Below the pieces are notes generated by a model. The model was not told where the DNA came from. It saw only the letters and a list, made by a program, of their open reading frames with translations, and made no database searches. Of a stretch of 64,000 nt of DNA, positions 7,359 through 62,384 are shown in pieces. Source of the stretch: Halomontanus rarus (GTDB taxonomy: Archaea > Halobacteriota > Halobacteria > Halobacteriales > Natrialbaceae); assembly GCF_017357405.1 (NCBI RefSeq), contig NZ_CP071597.1, positions 2,294,001 through 2,358,000 on the forward strand. Reading direction: 5' to 3'. Position 1 is the stretch's first letter, and each line of letters opens with the position of its first letter. The position numbers and the translations under genes are program-made.

Positions 7359-9701
7359 TTACTCGGCGACCGCGTCCGTCTCGGGTTCGGGAACGGGTTC
7401 GGTGCCCCCGCCACCACCACCGAGCCGACCGCCGGCCGTGAACACGTACAGGATCGCGAGCCCCAGCAAGTAGGTGAACGCGATCGGGAACGCGAGGACG
7501 AGCATCGTCAGAATGCCCGACGGGCTGGCGAACGCAGCGAACGTGAAGATGGCGATGACGACGACCCGCCAGCGCGCGAGCATCGACCGGTAGGAGACGA
7601 GTCCGCCGACGTGGAACAGCCCCATCGTGACGATGATGTTCATCAGGAAGCCGATCCCGATCGTCGTGAAGATCACCATCCAGATGAAGTGCTTGATCCG
7701 GTAGGAGATGATCATCCCGGCGTTGATCGCGTCCGCGATCAGGTAGGAGATCACCGCGGGTGCGATCCAGAAGAACCCGAGGTAGGTTCCGAGAGCGAAC
7801 CCGCCTATCAACGAGCCGCCCCAGACGATGAACAGGCGACGGTCTCCGCGGACCAGGCCGCGCTCTTTCATCGCCGGCCAGGCGTAGTAGAGAACCATCG
7901 GCAGGACCGCGACGATCGCCGCGAGCGTGCTCACTTTCACCTCGAAGATCAGGACCTCGACGGGGTGGATCGCGATGACGAAGTCACCTTCCACGATGAG
8001 TTCCCTGAGGTCGGGGTCGCTGCTCAGATTGGCGTCGTTCAACTCGGCGAGTTGAACGAGCAAGTCCTGTGGAACGTTTGCGACGAACTGCTCGAGAACG
8101 TCCCTGAGGCCCCCGCTGTAGAGCCACATGAACGTCCCGCCCATGACGAGCATGAAGACGCCGACGATGCGAAACATCTTCGAGGTCAGACTCTGGAAGA
8201 TGAAAGCCAGGTCGTAGGCGTAGCCGCCGATGTCCTCCTCGGTGGTCTCCTCCTCGGTGAAGGAATCGAGGATGCCGGCGGCGGTACTCGAGAAGACACT
8301 GGAGTCGTCGTCACCTGCAGCTTCCCCGCCGGCGTCACCACCGGTCGTCGCGGCAGCCGCTTCAGTGGCACCGTCACCCGCGCCGTCACCGTCATTGGAC
8401 GTGGTCAACGTGTCGTAGCGGTCGAGGATCGCCTGTGCCTTCTCGCGGTCGTTGTCGTACATCGCCTTCCGGGCGTGCTCGAGGGCCTCCTCTTCTTCCA
8501 TCGCCAGGAAGGCCTGAGGCGGGACGGCCTCGATCGCGTCGGCGTCGAGGATGTCGATGTCGATCTCCTCGGGATCGCCGGTTCGGATCTGGTCGATCCG
8601 CGGGTGCACTGGCGTCTGGAGGACTTTGACCGTGTAGCCGAGCAAGACGAGGAAGCCGACGCCGAGCCCGAACAGCAGGCCGACGATGACCGGCCCGAAC
8701 GCGCCGTACTCGGCCGCCATCGTCTCGAAGGCCGTCGGCCCGCCGGGCTGGATCGACTCGGGCAGGAACGGATAGACCTCGTCCTCGAGGATGTCGAAGC
8801 CGCCGATCGAGATGAACGAGGCGGTGGCGACCCAGACGAGGGCGATCGCGCCGGCGAACTGGAGGAGTCGCTGTTTCACGAAATTCGTTCCCGTCGCGGC
8901 TTCGGCGGCGCCTTTTCGGCGGATGTTGGCCAGCACTTTCGCGAGGCCGAGGCTGAAGACGTAGAGGACGACGAGCGGGATCGCCCACATGATGAGCGTG
9001 AACGGATCCGGCGGCGAGAAGAACGCGCCGAAGACGGTGATTCCGACGACGGAGTGTCGCCAGTAGTCGACGAACGTCTCGTACGGAACGATCTCGCTGT
9101 AGGAGAGCGCACCCATGAACAGCGGCAACTGCGCTGCGAGTCCGAACGAGATCGTCAGCAGCGCCATGAACTCGGTGAACTCCGTGATCCCGAAGCTCGG
9201 TTTGACGCCGGCGCTGTCCGCGTTTCCGGCGAGGAACTCGAAGGCGAAGGGGAAGAAGACACCGTACGCGTAGACGATCCCGACGAGAAACAGCGACAGG
9301 GACGTAACGACGAAGCCGGCGATGTGGAACTTTGAGATCGGAACCGCCGATTCGAAGCCGCGTTCCTTCAGCGGTTCGCGGGCGTAGTAGAGGACGGCGG
9401 GAATCGAGATGATCGCCCCGACGATGACCCCGATTTTCGCCTGTAACAGGATCACCTCGAACGGCGTTCGGGTGATGACCTCCGTCGTCTGGGCGAGGTT
9501 GGCGTCCATCTGCGCTTTCGCCGTGGCCTTGAGGAAGTCCCAGACGTAGAGTCTGAGGGCGTAAAACGAGCCGAGAAAGCCGATGACGAAGACGATGAAG
9601 ATCTTCTGGAGATGCGTCTGTGCGCTCGAGAGAATATCGCCGATCGTTTCCCGTCCGCTATTGATCGCCTGGACGGTGTCTTCGTCAACGGCGGAGCTCA
9701 T
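7359..9701 (-). CDS. Fused double TatC translocase subunit (TatCt type)
   Basis: A 780-residue polytopic membrane protein containing two TatC-like halves. The first spans about residues 25-330, with FxxxxREPLKERGFE and LPLFMGALSYSEIVPYE. The second spans about 460-750, with YAWPAMKERGLV. A long acidic, Ala/Gly/Asp-rich cytoplasmic linker lies between them, and about 14 membrane spans are expected. TatC recognises twin-arginine signal peptides. The double form (TatCt) is characteristic of haloarchaea, which send many secreted proteins through Tat. It is divergent from the single TatC gene. Confidence 0.93.
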   Translation of the reverse strand: MSSAVDEDTVQAINSGRETIGDILSSAQTHLQKIFIVFVIGFLGSFYALRLYVWDFLKATAKAQMDANLAQTTEVITRTPFEVILLQAKIGVIVGAIISIPAVLYYAREPLKERGFESAVPISKFHIAGFVVTSLSLFLVGIVYAYGVFFPFAFEFLAGNADSAGVKPSFGITEFTEFMALLTISFGLAAQLPLFMGALSYSEIVPYETFVDYWRHSVVGITVFGAFFSPPDPFTLIMWAIPLVVLYVFSLGLAKVLANIRRKGAAEAATGTNFVKQRLLQFAGAIALVWVATASFISIGGFDILEDEVYPFLPESIQPGGPTAFETMAAEYGAFGPVIVGLLFGLGVGFLVLLGYTVKVLQTPVHPRIDQIRTGDPEEIDIDILDADAIEAVPPQAFLAMEEEEALEHARKAMYDNDREKAQAILDRYDTLTTSNDGDGAGDGATEAAAATTGGDAGGEAAGDDDSSVFSSTAAGILDSFTEEETTEEDIGGYAYDLAFIFQSLTSKMFRIVGVFMLVMGGTFMWLYSGGLRDVLEQFVANVPQDLLVQLAELNDANLSSDPDLRELIVEGDFVIAIHPVEVLIFEVKVSTLAAIVAVLPMVLYYAWPAMKERGLVRGDRRLFIVWGGSLIGGFALGTYLGFFWIAPAVISYLIADAINAGMIISYRIKHFIWMVIFTTIGIGFLMNIIVTMGLFHVGGLVSYRSMLARWRVVVIAIFTFAAFASPSGILTMLVLAFPIAFTYLLGLAILYVFTAGGRLGGGGGGTEPVPEPETDAVAE

Positions 9702-53538: not shown

Positions 53539-53751
53539 ATGTGGATGGCTATCGGCCGGTTCGCTTAAATCCATCCTTCTCTCTGCCTCTCACGTCCGCA
53601 CGATGCCGTCTTCGAGGCGTTCAGTTAGCGGATCCGGCTACGCCATGGGTGAACGGCGACGAGCGTCGGTAACGAGGAGCCCGACCAGTACTTCGTGTCG
53701 AGATATAATACACTAATACCGGACAGTAAAGTCGATCTTTCCGTTTTTTTG

Positions 53752-53770
53752 CAGTGGAAACGAAGGAGTC
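53752..53770 (+). other. ORB-like sequence next to oapC
   Basis: CAGTGGAAACGAAGGAGTC differs by one base from the GAAACGAAGGGGT core of the origin boxes at 55990 and 56310. It lies just after the oapC stop, preceded by AT-rich sequence (AGATATAATACACTAATACC). Confidence 0.4.
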
Positions 53771-55989: not shown

Positions 55990-56015
55990 CCCCCACCCCT
56001 TCGTTTCAACTGGAA
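55990..56015 (-). other. Origin recognition box (ORB) 1
   Basis: Read on the minus strand: TTCCAGTTGAAACGAAGGGG, followed by TGGGGG. This is the haloarchaeal ORB core GAAACGAAGGGGT with its G-string. It is inverted relative to the ORB at 56310. Confidence 0.88.
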
Positions 56016-56138
56016 CCGACCGGAGCCCTCCCCACCGATCGAGACGTATTCGTCGGAAGCTCGTCCGATCGCACCCCTGATTTCGACTCGAACGGGAGTG
56101 TGACGGGTTCAGACGGACGAATTAGACGAATAGAACGG

Positions 56139-56290
56139 ATCTAGTAACAAAACGTCCTCTAGAAACGGATTCTAGTAGGCTCTAGTAACAAAAACCGACT
56201 CACCTAGTAAAAACGCTATTTTGCTAGTGCTACGGACCAATCTCTCACCCACCCACATAAAAATTCCTCTTCTGAAAACACCCCTCCCCA
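56139..56290. other. Putative DNA-unwinding element with CTAGTA repeats
   Basis: An AT-rich stretch between the two ORBs with six CTAG sites in about 90 bp (near 56141, 56159, 56172, 56182, 56204 and 56224), several as CTAGTAACAAAA. It ends at a pyrimidine-rich string (CCCCTCCCCACCCCTCCCC). The location and composition fit an unwinding element. Confidence 0.65.
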
Positions 56291-56309
56291 CCCCTCCCCT
56301 CGGAGCACG

Positions 56310-56338
56310 TTCCACCTGAAACGAAGGGGTGGGGGGTT
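56310..56338 (+). other. Origin recognition box (ORB) 2
   Basis: GTTCCACCTGAAACGAAGGG followed by GTGGGGGG. Core identical to ORB 1, opposite orientation, about 300 bp away, with the AT-rich element between. Confidence 0.9.
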
Positions 56339-57161
56339 CCGCTACCCCATCCTAACAAACTCTAAACACTATTATCGTTTCTGCCGTCGGCTCCCTGACC
56401 CCGTCTTGCCTTCTCTTTGAACCTCTCATCTGGACGTTCAGTGCGGTCACGGTTCGAGTCGAAACAATTCCTCCCGTGGGTTCACTCTCACCATCTCCCG
56501 CCATCGAACGCGACAAACCGGACAGTAATCGCGGGACATCGTCGAAACAGTCGTGACGAAGAACGCTCGTATCGTATTCGACACGAAGCAACACACAGAC
56601 TCTTCAGCTCGTTCTCGGTCGGACACGAAAATGCGCAGCGAGAGTGCCACGCGCCTCTCGACCTGTGGTACGTTACACACTTTCTGTCGATCCGTAGCTC
56701 CCAGACGTACGATCGGCAACCGAGCGTGACGGCCGAGTTCGCTGTTCCGAACGAGTTCCATTCGAATCGATGGTCTTCGGGTTCGAACGGGAACCCGATT
56801 CGATTTTCACTCACGTCGATAGCTCTCGACTCGCTCACTCGTTTCCTTCGTTCTCGCCGCTTTACGTGCGTACGTAAACTAACATTATAATGGCTGAATG
56901 CCCGTCTCGAGTCCCCCTGTCGGACTATCTATCGAAATCGGCTCGTACAGAGACGGGAACGTCTCGTCGACAACTCTTATAGATCAAATGACTAATTTGG
57001 CACCGGTTAACCCGGATGCTGGATTGCTGAAGGGAAGAACTTAATACCTAGCTCTTCCTCTGGTTCGTCTGCATCAACTGGACCCGAAAGACGGATCGAT
57101 AATCGAATGTCGGCCCGTTTTACCCGTCTACAGCGCCATATTTGGCCTTTCGGGCCCGCAA

Positions 57162-57182
57162 CTCCACACGAAACGAGGGGGT
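57162..57182 (+). other. ORB-like box at the orc1 leader
   Basis: CTCCACACGAAACGAGGGGGT (split as CTCCACACGAAACGAGGGG + GT) lies 14 bp before the orc1 ATG at 57196. Orc1 bound here could repress its own promoter, as initiators often do. Confidence 0.6.
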
Positions 57183-57195
57183 ACGTGTACGACGA

Positions 57196-59064
57196 ATGTC
57201 CGAGGACAATTCAGAAGGTTCGGATCGAAACGTCGATCTCGGATCTACGCACGGGTTCGGATCGAATCTCGAGGAGTCCGACCTGTCCGAAGAGGAACCG
57301 AATCAGGGACTGTTCGACGATCTGCTCAGTGGCGAACCGATCTTCGAGAACAAGGAAGTCCTTCGGCCTTCGTATACGCCACACGAACTCCCGCATCGAA
57401 GCGATCAGATCAACAAGATGGCGACGATCCTCGTCGCCGCCTTGCGCGGGGAGACGCCGTCGAACATCCTCATCTACGGCAAGACTGGAACGGGGAAGAC
57501 GGCGAGTGCGAAGTTCGTCAGCAAAGAACTCGAGAGCACCTCGAAGAAGTACAGCGTTCCCTGTGAGGTCGAGTACATCAATTGCGAGGTAACCGACACC
57601 CAGTATCGGGTGCTGGCACAGCTCGCCAACAAGTTCATCGAGGAGAACGAACGAGTTATCGAAAATCGCATCGACTCGCTCGAGTCACTGCTCGACGACC
57701 TCGACGAGTACGACGAGATGCTCGCTGCCGACGATTCCGGCTCGGAGACGAAGACGACCACCGAGTCCGAGATGGGACCGAACGACCCGTTCGTCGAGAG
57801 CGATGTCGTCGACGCAGCCGAGTCCGATACCGGAGCCGATTCGCGTCTCGAACCCTCGTCTTCGTCTCCGTCTCCAGAGTCGAAAGCGGAGGATCAAGTC
57901 GAATTCTCTGACGAGGAAACAGTAGACCTCACGTCTTCTGATTCAGGTTCTCCAGTCGAAACAGAGGGGTCTTCGGATACCGTCGATGACGACTTCCCGA
58001 CGAACGGATCCGAAACGAAGGGTGGTCACGATATCGACGAGACCGATACCGACACTACCGACGGTCACGACCACGACCACGACCGCGATCGAGCCCATCC
58101 ACTCACTGATACACCGTTTTCCTCGGCTGCCGACGTCGAAACGCGGATCGAATCTCTCGAGGAAGACCGCGAATCCTTCGAGGAGGTCCCGATGACCGGG
58201 TGGCCGACCGATCGGGTCTACAGCGTCTTCTTCGACGCGGTCGACTACTCCGAGCGCGTCGTCGTCATCATGCTCGACGAGATCGACAAACTCGTCGAGA
58301 AGAGCGGGGACGACACGCTCTACAACCTCTCGCGGATGAACTCCGAACTTCAGAACTCCCGGGTGTCGATCATCGGCATCTCGAACGACCTGAAGTTCAC
58401 CGACTTCCTCGACCCGCGCGTCAAATCCTCGCTCGGCGAGGAGGAGATCGTCTTCCCGCCCTACGACGCGAACCAGCTCCGGGACATCCTCCAGCACCGA
58501 TCGGAGGTCGCGTTCAAAGGAGACGCCCTCTCGCCCGACGTGATTCCACTCTGTGCGGCCTTCGCGGCCCAGGAACACGGCGACGCCCGTCGGGCGCTCG
58601 ACTTGCTGCGGACGGCGGGCGAACTCGCAGAGCGCTCCCAGGCGGAGACGATCGTCGAAGAACACGTCCGGCAGGCCCAGGACAAGATCGAACTCGACCG
58701 CGTCGTCGAGGTCGTCCGCACGCTTCCGACGCAGTCGAAACTCGTCCTCTTCGCGATCATCCTCCTCGAGAAAAACGGCGTCCACAGCATCAACACCGGC
58801 GAAGTGTTCAACATCTACAAGCGCCTCTGTGAGGAGATCGATGCCGACGTCCTCACCCAACGTCGGGTGACGGATCTCATCAGCGAACTCGACATGCTCG
58901 GGATCGTCAACGCCGTCGTCGTCTCGAAGGGCCGGTACGGCCGGACCAAGGAGATCAGCCTCTCGGTTCCGATCGAAGAGACGGAGGCCGTCCTCCTCTC
59001 GGACTCGAGGCTCTCGAATATCGACGACGTGCAGCCGTTCGTGCAGGCGCGGTTCGACAACTGA
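57196..59064 (+). CDS. orc1: Orc1/Cdc6 initiator at the main origin
   Basis: 622 residues from ATG 57196 (MSEDNSEGSDRNVDLGS). Walker A is YGKTGTGKTAS near residue 94. A very long acidic, hexamer-rich insert (about 170-330) interrupts the AAA+ domain. Walker B is VVIMLDEIDKLV near 356, sensor 2 is DARRALDLLRTAGELA, and the winged-helix C-terminus starts near 520. It is far longer than the 378-residue paralogue at 28.4 kb because of the insert. It sits next to oriC1 and is the likely initiator there. The insert DNA contains ORB-like sequences. Confidence 0.95.
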   Translation: MSEDNSEGSDRNVDLGSTHGFGSNLEESDLSEEEPNQGLFDDLLSGEPIFENKEVLRPSYTPHELPHRSDQINKMATILVAALRGETPSNILIYGKTGTGKTASAKFVSKELESTSKKYSVPCEVEYINCEVTDTQYRVLAQLANKFIEENERVIENRIDSLESLLDDLDEYDEMLAADDSGSETKTTTESEMGPNDPFVESDVVDAAESDTGADSRLEPSSSSPSPESKAEDQVEFSDEETVDLTSSDSGSPVETEGSSDTVDDDFPTNGSETKGGHDIDETDTDTTDGHDHDHDRDRAHPLTDTPFSSAADVETRIESLEEDRESFEEVPMTGWPTDRVYSVFFDAVDYSERVVVIMLDEIDKLVEKSGDDTLYNLSRMNSELQNSRVSIIGISNDLKFTDFLDPRVKSSLGEEEIVFPPYDANQLRDILQHRSEVAFKGDALSPDVIPLCAAFAAQEHGDARRALDLLRTAGELAERSQAETIVEEHVRQAQDKIELDRVVEVVRTLPTQSKLVLFAIILLEKNGVHSINTGEVFNIYKRLCEEIDADVLTQRRVTDLISELDMLGIVNAVVVSKGRYGRTKEISLSVPIEETEAVLLSDSRLSNIDDVQPFVQARFDN

Positions 59065-59219
59065 GACTCGAGGCGACACAACGGGCCTGAATCCTCCGCT
59101 GTGAAATCACCGAAGAACGACTCGGGGTACTCACTCCCGTTCTCTCGAGAGACCAGTTCCGTCAGCGCAGTCGCTCGTGTTTCAGAGACGGTAAAATCAA
59201 TCGCCGAAACCCATACTCG

Positions 59220-59241
59220 ACCCCTTCGGTTCCACTCGAGT
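59220..59241 (-). other. Weak ORB-like sequence downstream of orc1
   Basis: In the 279-bp gap after orc1, the minus strand reads CTCGAGTGGAACCGAAGGGG then T, matching the ORB 3' half (CGAAGGGGT) but with a weaker 5' half. No gene is seen in this gap. Confidence 0.25.
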
Positions 59242-59343
59242 CGGTCGCGATACCGGTGTTTCGAGTCGGAGTCTCGGCTCGGTTTTCGGGATTTCGGATC
59301 GTCACTCGAGGCCGTCGTGCGATCCGGCCTCGCTCTCGAGTCT

Positions 59344-60597
59344 TCAATACCCGTATCGGCGGCGAACCGAGAACCTGAGAGCGCCCATACTCAGGCCGAG
59401 GACGCCCGTGGTCCCTGCCAGCCCGGACGGACTGTTCGGCAGTACCGGGGTCGTCTGCACGCCGGGTTCGGTCGCCGAGACGACGCCCGGTTCGGGTCCA
59501 GTCGAGAGGTACTTGTCGAACGTGAGTCTGACGTGGCCGAGCCACGGGATCCGGAACATGCCTTTGCCGGTGATCCACTCCGATCTGACGACGTCCGTGT
59601 CTGCGCCGCCGGCGACCTGATCGTACCCGTCGTTCCAGTCCCCCTTCGTAACGAAGCCGTCGTGGTTGGCCTCGCAGGTCGAGAGCCGCTCACAACTGGT
59701 TGCCCCGTTGAGGTAGTCCGGATTCGCCTGTTCTTCGACCCAGTTGTCGTCCTCGTTGACCCAGAAACGGGCTCGATGGATGACGGGTGTCTCGAACTCG
59801 TTTCCGTTGGGTGCGAAGATGATCACGTCTCCGGGTTCGCCGAACTTCTCGTGGCCGCTGTCGGCGCCGTCGGCGTACGTGACGACCCCGGTGTCGCCAG
59901 TCGGATCGTCGCCGACGAACCGACCTTCGTCGACGACGAAGATGAGATCGCCCGTCTTCATGTTCGGCTGCATACTCCCGCTCTCGACGGCGACCAGCGG
60001 CGGCCAGACGCCGCTGATCCCGAAGAGGACGAGGCCGATGAGTGCGACGACCGCGACGCTGCTCAGGACGTCGCGAATCGCGACGACCGTCCCGTCGTTG
60101 GTCTTGAAGAACCAGCGGACGATCCCGTCGTCTTCGATCGTGACCGGTTCCGCCCGTGCGGCCTCGCTGCCGGGTTCCGGTTTCGGTTCCGATTCTGGTT
60201 CCGGTTCCGGAGTCGACGCTCGAGCCGACTCGCTCTGTGCCGTCGCCGGACCTGCCACGCCGCGTTCGCCGCCGTTCGGTTCGGGGTCGGGCGAATCGTT
60301 CCGGGAAGGCAACTTCCCCTCTGCCTCGCCTCGAGTGGAAGTCGACGCTCCGTCGGTGATGGGATCGGAATCAGGGTCAGTCTCAGAACCGAGGCCGGGT
60401 TCGTGATCGGAATCCGAATCTGCCGACTCGACGCCGGAATCAGAATCTGGACCTGCCCCTGGGTCGGGTTCGGGCTCGGAATCTGAATCGGCGGGGTCGC
60501 TCGTCGAAGTATCCGATGGCACCTCGTCGTCCTCGGATCGATCCGCGTCTCGAGAATCGTCGGAGGAGCCACCGGAGCCGGGACCGCTCATTACCAT
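59344..60597 (-). CDS. Signal peptidase I (Sec11 type)
   Basis: About 417 residues from ATG 60597; ATG 60591 is possible. An unusually long acidic N-terminal region (about 185 residues, rich in Ser/Asp/Pro/Glu hexamer repeats) precedes a membrane helix (VVALIGLVLFGISGVWPPLV). The catalytic serine is in VESGSMQPNM near residue 204 and the probable histidine in PVIHRARFW near 271, the Ser-His arrangement of archaeal S26B enzymes. A second helix ends the protein. Conserved neighbour of orc1 in haloarchaea. Confidence 0.92.
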   Translation of the reverse strand: MVMSGPGSGGSSDDSRDADRSEDDEVPSDTSTSDPADSDSEPEPDPGAGPDSDSGVESADSDSDHEPGLGSETDPDSDPITDGASTSTRGEAEGKLPSRNDSPDPEPNGGERGVAGPATAQSESARASTPEPEPESEPKPEPGSEAARAEPVTIEDDGIVRWFFKTNDGTVVAIRDVLSSVAVVALIGLVLFGISGVWPPLVAVESGSMQPNMKTGDLIFVVDEGRFVGDDPTGDTGVVTYADGADSGHEKFGEPGDVIIFAPNGNEFETPVIHRARFWVNEDDNWVEEQANPDYLNGATSCERLSTCEANHDGFVTKGDWNDGYDQVAGGADTDVVRSEWITGKGMFRIPWLGHVRLTFDKYLSTGPEPGVVSATEPGVQTTPVLPNSPSGLAGTTGVLGLSMGALRFSVRRRYGY

Positions 60598-60728
60598 CCG
60601 TTTTGCTGGGGCCAGCAATCAACTTTCTGTTCCACGGTGTCTGGTAGCACGCTCGACCTACTCGAACCGACGTCCCATCGAACGCGACATTCGCCACGCT
60701 TTTCTCGTCACTCGCGAATACCAGCAGT

Positions 60729-62384
60729 GTGCCACTCGAGGGCTCCGCCCGAATCGTCGGTGAACTCACGAGCCACGGCTACAACGTCGAACGTGAGGCG
60801 GTGACGCTGATCGCCTCGGCCGACGACCCCCGAACCGTGCTGGAGGTCGTCCTCGAGGAGATGCCCGAGGACGCGCTGGTCGTCGAGACCGACCTCGTTC
60901 GCTCGGTTCGCGACGAGGTTCGAGCGGCCGGTCGCAACGGTGGATCCGCCGCCGATTCCGTGGAACACGACGTATCCGACTCGAACCCGCGACGGGCTGG
61001 GGACGCCGAACCCGAACCCGAATCCGAACCCGGATCCGGACCCGAACCCGAACACCCCTCTGTTTCAACTGGAGACTCCTCTCCCGAATCCGTCGATAAC
61101 GGTGGTGGATCTCCACTCGAAACGAAGGGGTCTGCGGACTCGTCCGATCGCTCCTTCGAACGTTCGGGCGACGCCACGAAGCGGGAACTCGAGATCGTCG
61201 GCGACATGACCGGCCAGAGTACGGGAACCGGCGAGTACCGGGACTTCGTGACGGTGTTTCGCGACCGACTCGACCGACTCGGCTCGAAGCTTCGCGGTCG
61301 GATCAACCACCGACCCGCGTCCGCGATCCAGAGCATGCCTGGCGGCAGCGAGGTCGGGATGGTCGGACTGGTCAACGACATCCGATCGACGGCCAGCGGC
61401 CACTGGCTGGTCGAACTCGAGGACGCGACCGGGACCTTCCCGTGGCTGGTGATGAAGGATCGGGAGTACGCCGATCTCGTCGAGGAGTTGCTGTGCGACG
61501 AGGCGCTGGCGATGGAGGGGACCCTCTCGGACGACGCGGGGATCGCGTTCGTCGATTCCATGTACTTCCCGGACGTGCCCCGGACCCACCAGCCCTCGAC
61601 CGCCGACCGTCACGTGCAGGCGGCGCTGATCAGCGACGTCCACGTCGGCAGCCAGGAGTTCATGGCGGACGCCTGGAACGGCTTCACTGACTGGCTGCAC
61701 ACCGAAGCGGCCCGGAACGTCGAGTACCTGTTGCTCGCCGGCGACATGGTCGAGGGCGTCGGCATCTACCCGAATCAGGACGAGGAACTCGACATCGTCG
61801 ACATCTACGAGCAGTACGAGGCCTTCAGCGAGTACCTCAAACAGGTTCCCGGGGACATGGAGATCGTCATGATTCCGGGCAACCACGACGCGGTTCGACT
61901 CGCCGAGCCCCAGCCGGGGTTCGACGAGGAACTCCGCGAGATAATGTCCGCCCACGACGCGCAGATCGTGAGCAATCCCTCGATGGTCACCGTCGAGGGC
62001 GTTTCCGTGCTCATGTACCACGGCGTCTCGCTGGACGAAGTCATCGCCGAACTCCCCGAGGAGAAAGCGAGCTACGAGGAACCGCACAAGGCGATGTACC
62101 AGCTGCTGAAGAAACGTCACGTCGCCCCGCAGTTCGGCGGTCACACCCGGCTCGCACCCGAAGAGAAGGACTATCTCGTCATCGACGAGGTACCCGACAT
62201 CTTCCACACCGGCCACGTCCACAAGCTCGGGTTCGGCAAGTACCACAACGTACTCGCGATCAACTCCGGCTGCTGGCAGTCCCAGACGGACTTCCAGAAG
62301 AGCGTCAACATCGATCCCGACGCGGGATACGCGCCGATCGTCGATCTCGACACGCTCGACGTGACGGTCCAGAAGTTCTCTTAA
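60729..62384 (+). CDS. polB: DNA polymerase D (II) small subunit
   Basis: 551 residues from GTG 60729. It is the archaeal PolD exonuclease subunit (DP1): an N-terminal helical domain, an acidic linker (about 85-155) and an OB-fold. The metallophosphatase domain has ISDVHVGS (about 299), LAGDMVEG (about 338), PGNHDAVR (about 383) and TGHVHKLG (about 497), which provide the catalytic metal ligands. It works with the large subunit DP2 (not in this window). The linker-coding DNA contains an inverted pair of ORB-like sequences. Confidence 0.95.
   Translation: MPLEGSARIVGELTSHGYNVEREAVTLIASADDPRTVLEVVLEEMPEDALVVETDLVRSVRDEVRAAGRNGGSAADSVEHDVSDSNPRRAGDAEPEPESEPGSGPEPEHPSVSTGDSSPESVDNGGGSPLETKGSADSSDRSFERSGDATKRELEIVGDMTGQSTGTGEYRDFVTVFRDRLDRLGSKLRGRINHRPASAIQSMPGGSEVGMVGLVNDIRSTASGHWLVELEDATGTFPWLVMKDREYADLVEELLCDEALAMEGTLSDDAGIAFVDSMYFPDVPRTHQPSTADRHVQAALISDVHVGSQEFMADAWNGFTDWLHTEAARNVEYLLLAGDMVEGVGIYPNQDEELDIVDIYEQYEAFSEYLKQVPGDMEIVMIPGNHDAVRLAEPQPGFDEELREIMSAHDAQIVSNPSMVTVEGVSVLMYHGVSLDEVIAELPEEKASYEEPHKAMYQLLKKRHVAPQFGGHTRLAPEEKDYLVIDEVPDIFHTGHVHKLGFGKYHNVLAINSGCWQSQTDFQKSVNIDPDAGYAPIVDLDTLDVTVQKFS
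61052..61076 (-). other. ORB-like sequence in polD gene, left
   Basis: Read on the minus strand: TCTCCAGTTGAAACAGAGGG then GTGTT. The first 12 bases of the core, TCCAGTTGAAAC, are identical to the first 12 of ORB 1. Confidence 0.5.
61110..61133 (+). other. ORB-like sequence in polD gene, right
   Basis: TCTCCACTCGAAACGAAGGG then GTCT contains the exact ORB core GAAACGAAGGGGT. It is inverted relative to the box at 61052, with about 33 bp between. Confidence 0.6.

Follow-up and report, generated by a model that had tools for sequence, protein, structure and literature searches.

ORBs outside replication origins are already known from haloarchaea, where they have been proposed to serve negative control, according to the passages available from one study (PMC3936714). 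The same passages present oriC2D of Haloarcula hispanica as an intergenic cluster of 11 ORBs downstream of cdc6E, beside oriC2. In bacteria, E. coli datA and DnaA autoregulation likewise use initiator sites away from the origin for control (as outlined in PMC3936714), in this case with an unrelated initiator. Each ORB is described as the site of one Orc monomer that binds with a polarity (excerpts of PMC7776575). As far as its passages tell, a main survey of haloarchaeal ORBs covered only the intergenic DNA that flanks orc/cdc6 genes (PMC3528665), so that it would miss the site in DP1 described here. ORBs inside DP1 or any polymerase gene are not mentioned in the passages available from PMC3936714, PMC3528665, PMC7776575, PMC6063281, PMC4441112 and PMC12141716. 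Among the literature matches listed, no title points to Orc1 ChIP-seq in haloarchaea.

An inverted ORB pair inside the DP1 gene

We analysed a 64,000-nucleotide stretch of the Halomontanus rarus genome (the window), which holds oriC1, the initiator gene orc1 and the gene for DP1, the small subunit of DNA polymerase D (Table 1). An earlier note on this DNA had pointed to two ORB-like boxes in inverted orientation within the DP1 linker-coding sequence. Both were located, and each is perfect against the origin-type ORB core TCCANNNGAAACNNNGGGGT (14/14). The right box indeed has the exact GAAACGAAGGGGT core, and the TCCAGTTGAAAC that the left box was said to share with an origin ORB is found unchanged in the left oriC1 box at 56003-56014. 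The boxes are 58 bp apart from start to start, which leaves 38 bp between the 20-mers instead of the roughly 33 bp given earlier. Their G-rich ends face outwards, reverse then forward. The geometry of oriC1, to which the pair had been likened, is therefore the same in order and orientation but not in spacing, which is 316 bp at oriC1. Allowing up to three mismatches, no other inverted ORB pair at 58 bp was found in the 5.17-Mb genome.

Table 1. Positions in the window of the DP1 gene, orc1, oriC1 and the ORBs discussed in the text.
Feature	Position	Strand	Remarks
DP1 gene (DNA polymerase D small subunit)	60729..62384	+	holds ORB pair in acidic linker, about codons 109-135
Left ORB of DP1 pair, TCCAGTTGAAACAGAGGGGT	61054..61073	-	14/14 specified bases; plus strand codes P-S-V-S-T-G
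Spacer of DP1 pair, 38 bp	61074..61111	.	conserved in length but not in sequence; AT 42% in window
Right ORB of DP1 pair, TCCACTCGAAACGAAGGGGT	61112..61131	+	14/14 specified bases; codes S-P-L-E-T-K-G-S
Left ORB of oriC1	55995-56014	-	extended C/G-string present
Right ORB of oriC1	56311-56330	+	extended G-string present
ORB upstream of orc1	57163-57182	+	starts 33 bp before orc1 ATG
orc1 (Orc1/Cdc6 initiator, oriC1 type)	57196..59064	+	
ORB within orc1 acidic linker	57951-57970	+	reading frame same as right DP1 box
Weak ORB, 12/14	59220..59239	-	between convergent 3' ends of orc1 and sec11
Weak ORB, 12/14	53750..53769	+	intergenic, left of oriC1

Perfect matches to TCCANNNGAAACNNNGGGGT occur at nine places in the 5.17 Mb. 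OriC1 and DP1 account for two each, a fifth precedes orc1 and a sixth lies within that gene; of the remaining three, one is found about 14 kb past DP1 and the other two at a distance of about 186 kb. For TCCANNNGAAACNNAGGGGT there are six perfect matches, five of them within 55995-61131. The two remote boxes are identical ORBs in the same direction, 246 bp apart and about 186 kb from oriC1 (L164:8779-8798 and 9025-9044); the gene downstream of them is presumably an HtpX-like protease. The lone perfect ORB about 14 kb beyond DP1 (L163:13085-13104) precedes a small predicted gene and is near a gene that we take to encode a Hel308-like helicase.

The region of orc1 carries ORBs of its own in other genomes as well. 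Of 67 loci, 50 have a plus-strand ORB of at least 13/14 close to the start of orc1, most commonly 33 bp upstream of it, and this box may be an autoregulatory site. ORBs of at least 13/14 were also seen in the orc1 acidic linker (29/67 loci; the codon test of this linker was restricted to boxes preselected at this threshold). Seven loci have an inverted pair there, 49 bp apart, with boxes of at least 12/14 (L023, L028, L036, L054, L058, L061, L064).

Conservation of the pair and selection on the DNA

For comparison we assembled 81 DP1 sequences, namely the window and the best 80 of 176 haloarchaeal loci from a DP1 similarity search, whose best segments are 64-79% identical; L038 and L041 are two records of one genome. 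The distance between the best-scoring left and right boxes is 58 bp in 75 of the 81 sequences and 55 bp in three more. In these 78 the box order and reading frames are the same throughout, although some left boxes have decayed to as low as 9/14. Only L063, L085 and L097 are without boxes at these distances. Both boxes reach at least 12/14 in 65 of the 81 sequences, and 30 have 14/14 twice. The pairs of Haloarcula pellucida (L079) and Haloarcula rara (L082) are perfect; in Haloferax profundi (L087) each box scores 13/14. Among sequences with the pair, the left box begins 196-496 nt from the DP1 start; the pair is thus a nearly rigid unit within a variable linker. Considering boxes of at least 12/14 in 80 DP1 sequences, 64 pairs are inverted, one is tandem and none shows either of the other two arrangements. 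The spacings observed in DP1 are 55, 58, 70, 73 and 76 bp, and distances of 61, 64 and 67 bp are found neither among these nor among the class-sample matches listed. This hints at a limit set by the face of the helix, into which 73 bp fits badly. Outside DP1, two weak ORB pairs at 67 bp were seen (L059, L067).

The linker is repetitive and of low complexity, and the earlier note had allowed for a coincidence in it. This is refuted: 79 of 80 sequences have a box of at least 12/14 within the first 700 nt of DP1, whereas codon-shuffled DP1 gave a mean of 0.30 sequences with a box and a maximum of one in 20 rounds, and the pair is kept as DNA in many genera of haloarchaea. These counts include related and hence non-independent sequences, and the control codon columns used below share the same tree. 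We consider the chance of a coincidence negligible. Loss of the boxes in close relatives, which had been named as a finding that would speak against the site, was not the rule, as most relatives compared retain the pair.

Since the boxes encode PSVSTG and SPVETxGS-like peptides, selection on the protein needed testing. If these peptide motifs were the selected thing, the likeness to ORBs would be a by-product; the peptide is recognisable in most loci and each box keeps a single reading frame. The codons argue against this reading. With boxes located by DNA score in 77 sequences (leaving aside the duplicate L041 and L063, L085 and L097) and expected counts taken from the rest of the same genes, Val is encoded by GTT in 56 of 56 cases (3.8 expected), Thr by ACT in 71/71 (3.7), Gly by GGA in 71/71 (8.0), Pro by CCA in 73/73 (6.6), Glu by GAA in 77/77 (24.0) and another Gly by GGG in 71/74 (17.4). 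GTT, ACT, GGA and CCA are non-preferred codons, yet they are fixed in the boxes. At the GTT codon the commonest base is kept in 69/77 sequences at the first position, 58/77 at the second and 77/77 at the third, and the third base T is unchanged where Val becomes Ala, Thr, Pro, Ile, Asn or Gly. Where the ORB is degenerate, codons are not fixed (ACG in 56 of 72 Thr, 32.9 expected; TCG in 41 of 77 Ser, 32.6 expected), as selection at the DNA level predicts.

A protein-aligned version of the test with 80 sequences is free of the location bias of the DNA score. Over 119 control columns the median share of the commonest codon was 0.64, and the six columns that reached 0.95 are all Val with GTC or GTG. 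In the box columns the shares were 1.00 for CCA, 1.00 for GGA, 0.99 for ACT and 0.95 for GGG; for ACG, the fifth column, which ends in a base that the ORB leaves degenerate, the share was 0.78. Fixed non-preferred codons together with an invariant third base indicate that selection acts on the DNA. The same motif moreover recurs outside coding sequence, at oriC1, and ahead of orc1, and the reading frames in use are presumably those that suit an acidic linker. The codon fixation largely refutes a peptide motif as the main target, and we regard this explanation as very improbable overall. Purifying selection maintains the pair as DNA, and its motif, orientation and spacing are conserved in many genera of Halobacteria.

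Because a single motif is repeated here in opposite orientations, the boxes could also pair as an RNA hairpin in the DP1 message. However, Watson-Crick pairs at the six variable positions numbered 280 of 450, against a mean of 270.0 when boxes were reshuffled between loci, a level reached by 0.087 of 2000 shuffles. A hairpin was rejected for lack of clear covariation at these positions, and its probability appears even slightly smaller than that of the peptide.

Taxonomic spread and linkage to orc1

An exact pair with a gap of 20-50 bp is present in 138 of 391 class genomes sampled, covering 41 of 86 genera, and the backwards control pattern gave no matches among the class-sample rows listed. 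With a gap of 51-80 bp the exact pair occurs in two of the 391 genomes, in both inside DP1. A phylum-wide sample gave the exact pair in 26 of the 81 genomes that belong to the order and in none of the 311 from outside the order; viral contigs gave none. The exact pair is absent from 253 of the 391 class genomes. Thirty DP1 loci from genomes of this kind were inspected: in 22 the boxes, though often decayed, are still 55, 58 or 70 bp apart with their reading frames unchanged, and the other eight keep only the right box (at least 13/14; three loci), only the left box (one) or neither (four). The element is probably ancestral in the order and decaying in some lineages, and the decayed or lost boxes imply that it is dispensable or weakened there. 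One genome, G116 (L171), has an identical DP1 pair twice, on two contigs, perhaps through duplication or as an assembly artefact.

The position of orc1 was checked in 49 pair-positive genomes, chosen from the listed places of the 138 with large contigs favoured. In 43 of them no more than about 5 kb separates orc1 from the pair, and in six orc1 is 14-193 kb away (G045, 193 kb; G343, 77 kb; G229, 72 kb; G219, 30 kb; G036, 15 kb; G352, 14 kb). For five of these six (G045, G219, G229, G343 and G036) we confirmed the pair inside DP1. In Halorarius litoreus (L098), orc1 and DP1 are 131 kb apart and both boxes are 14/14. The pair is perfect in the genomes where DP1 sits 72-193 kb from orc1 (193, 131, 77 and 72 kb). 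Orc1 genes more than 10 kb away were found in two of 31 genomes lacking the exact pair (G008, G123) versus six of 49 with it, so that decay does not follow unlinking. In the far-orc1 genomes the element stays with DP1 and not with orc1, which may reflect evolutionary inertia. The proximity in 43 of 49 genomes would also suit an oriC-related role.

G045 (L172, L178, L127) amounts to a natural experiment on how initiator and origin are linked, with an oriC-type pair, orc1 and DP1 separated by hundreds of kb on one contig. Six perfect ORBs are present in its 3.8 Mb: those of the DP1 pair, one immediately upstream of orc1, those of the oriC-type pair and one more. The boxes of the oriC-type pair, at 1.78 Mb, are 318 bp from each other, with G-strings and an AT-richer interior (0.54 vs 0.41). 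From this pair it is about 1.5 Mb to DP1 and 1.3 Mb to orc1; the DP1 pair is still 14/14 twice. We did not find the genes that normally adjoin oriC1 next to the distant pair, so that descent of this pair from oriC1 is putative and relies on the assembly as deposited.

Possible roles and relation to known systems

Motif identity and the ORB literature (PMC7776575, in the passages available) argue that two Orc1 molecules bind the pair, and we consider binding of Orc1 very likely. The fixed spacing suggests that they touch or act together, and the retention of the pair in relocated DP1 genes suggests that DP1 is the target. We tentatively propose that the pair is a spacing-locked Orc1-binding regulatory element that would act on DP1 expression; that bound Orc1 affects the DP1 gene itself is a good deal less certain than binding, at somewhat below an even chance. 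Two Orc1 molecules of the oriC1 type would bind the intragenic pair in a fixed geometry without starting replication and, most simply as a road-block or intragenic operator, would lower or time DP1 transcription according to free Orc1. The varying distance from the DP1 start argues against a classical promoter operator. The ORB upstream of orc1 could be the matching autoregulatory site, which fits a wider Orc1 circuit, and the supply of initiator and that of polymerase would thereby be coupled. An ancestral feedback, in which Orc1 directly controls the replicative polymerase through a spacing-locked ORB pair written partly into synonymous positions of the disordered linker, is conceivable, though we hold it with slightly less confidence than an effect on DP1. 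We rank an operator or road-block first, titration or handcuffing second and a dormant replication start third; other DNA-bound roles fill the remaining probability.

Regulation and titration had both been offered by the earlier note, and both still stand. As a means of titration or handcuffing, the pair would be a high-affinity sink for Orc1 or a looping partner of oriC1 that limits initiation, comparable to oriC2D or to datA of E. coli. It comprises two of the nine perfect ORBs in H. rarus and two of the six in G045, mostly lies close to orc1, and ORB-based negative control has a haloarchaeal precedent as cited above. On the other hand, DP1 holds two boxes rather than a many-box cluster, few for a sink when compared with the 11 of oriC2D. 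For a plain sink, neither the spacing nor the host gene would have to be fixed, yet the pair remains in the moved DP1, and looping to oriC1 is hard to reconcile with distances that range from 72 kb up to 1.5 Mb. We regard titration, the main rival, as rather unlikely.

A secondary or dormant start, likewise raised before, would have Orc1 recruit MCM between the boxes, as at ORB3-DUE-ORB2 of Sulfolobus. The ORBs are inverted as in an origin and have the polarity of oriC1, and the ORB2/ORB3 unit of Sulfolobus islandicus is described as compact too, at 130 bp with its DUE (passages of PMC12141716). However, an AT-rich core is absent: the spacer has a mean AT of 0.35, equal to the DP1 mean of 0.35 (75 sequences), and in the window the 0.42 of the spacer compares with 0.48 in the whole oriC1 interior, a small gap. 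The extended halophile G-string, reported as essential for oriC1 of H. hispanica (in the part of PMC3936714 available), is also absent: over 77 sequences the stretch following the right box has a mean of 2.7/8 G, compared with 6.5/8 at oriC1. By anatomy the pair is disfavoured as an origin, and we deem a dormant start improbable.

The spacing-locked regulatory element favoured here would bear on a poorly known matter, namely how initiation in archaea is kept in step with the availability of replication proteins. Polymerase D is essential in Haloferax volcanii (according to passages of PMC7776575), and a conserved, precisely spaced element links a putative initiator-binding code to the gene of this polymerase. 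Many box bases could be altered by synonymous changes, which makes the proposal directly testable in genetically tractable haloarchaea. The locus also illustrates that ORB surveys confined to intergenic regions can miss conserved sites. We know of no bacterial initiator site that is conserved inside a polymerase gene.

Among known systems, haloarchaeal oriC1 resembles the DP1 pair in its ORB core, its reverse-then-forward polarity and often the same 5-kb neighbourhood. It differs in spacing (182-385 bp over the 67 loci measured, against mostly 55-58 bp), and the pair is intragenic and has neither an AT-rich core nor an extended G-string. The ORB3-DUE-ORB2 unit of Sulfolobus oriC1 consists of compact inverted Orc1-1 sites, as the DP1 pair does of compact inverted ORBs, but it is an active origin with an AT-rich DUE and ucm motif, as described in passages of PMC12141716. 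With oriC2D the pair shares ORBs outside an origin, for which initiator binding without initiation has been proposed (passages of PMC3936714); unlike oriC2D, it is a single spaced pair inside a gene, mostly in the neighbourhood of oriC1.
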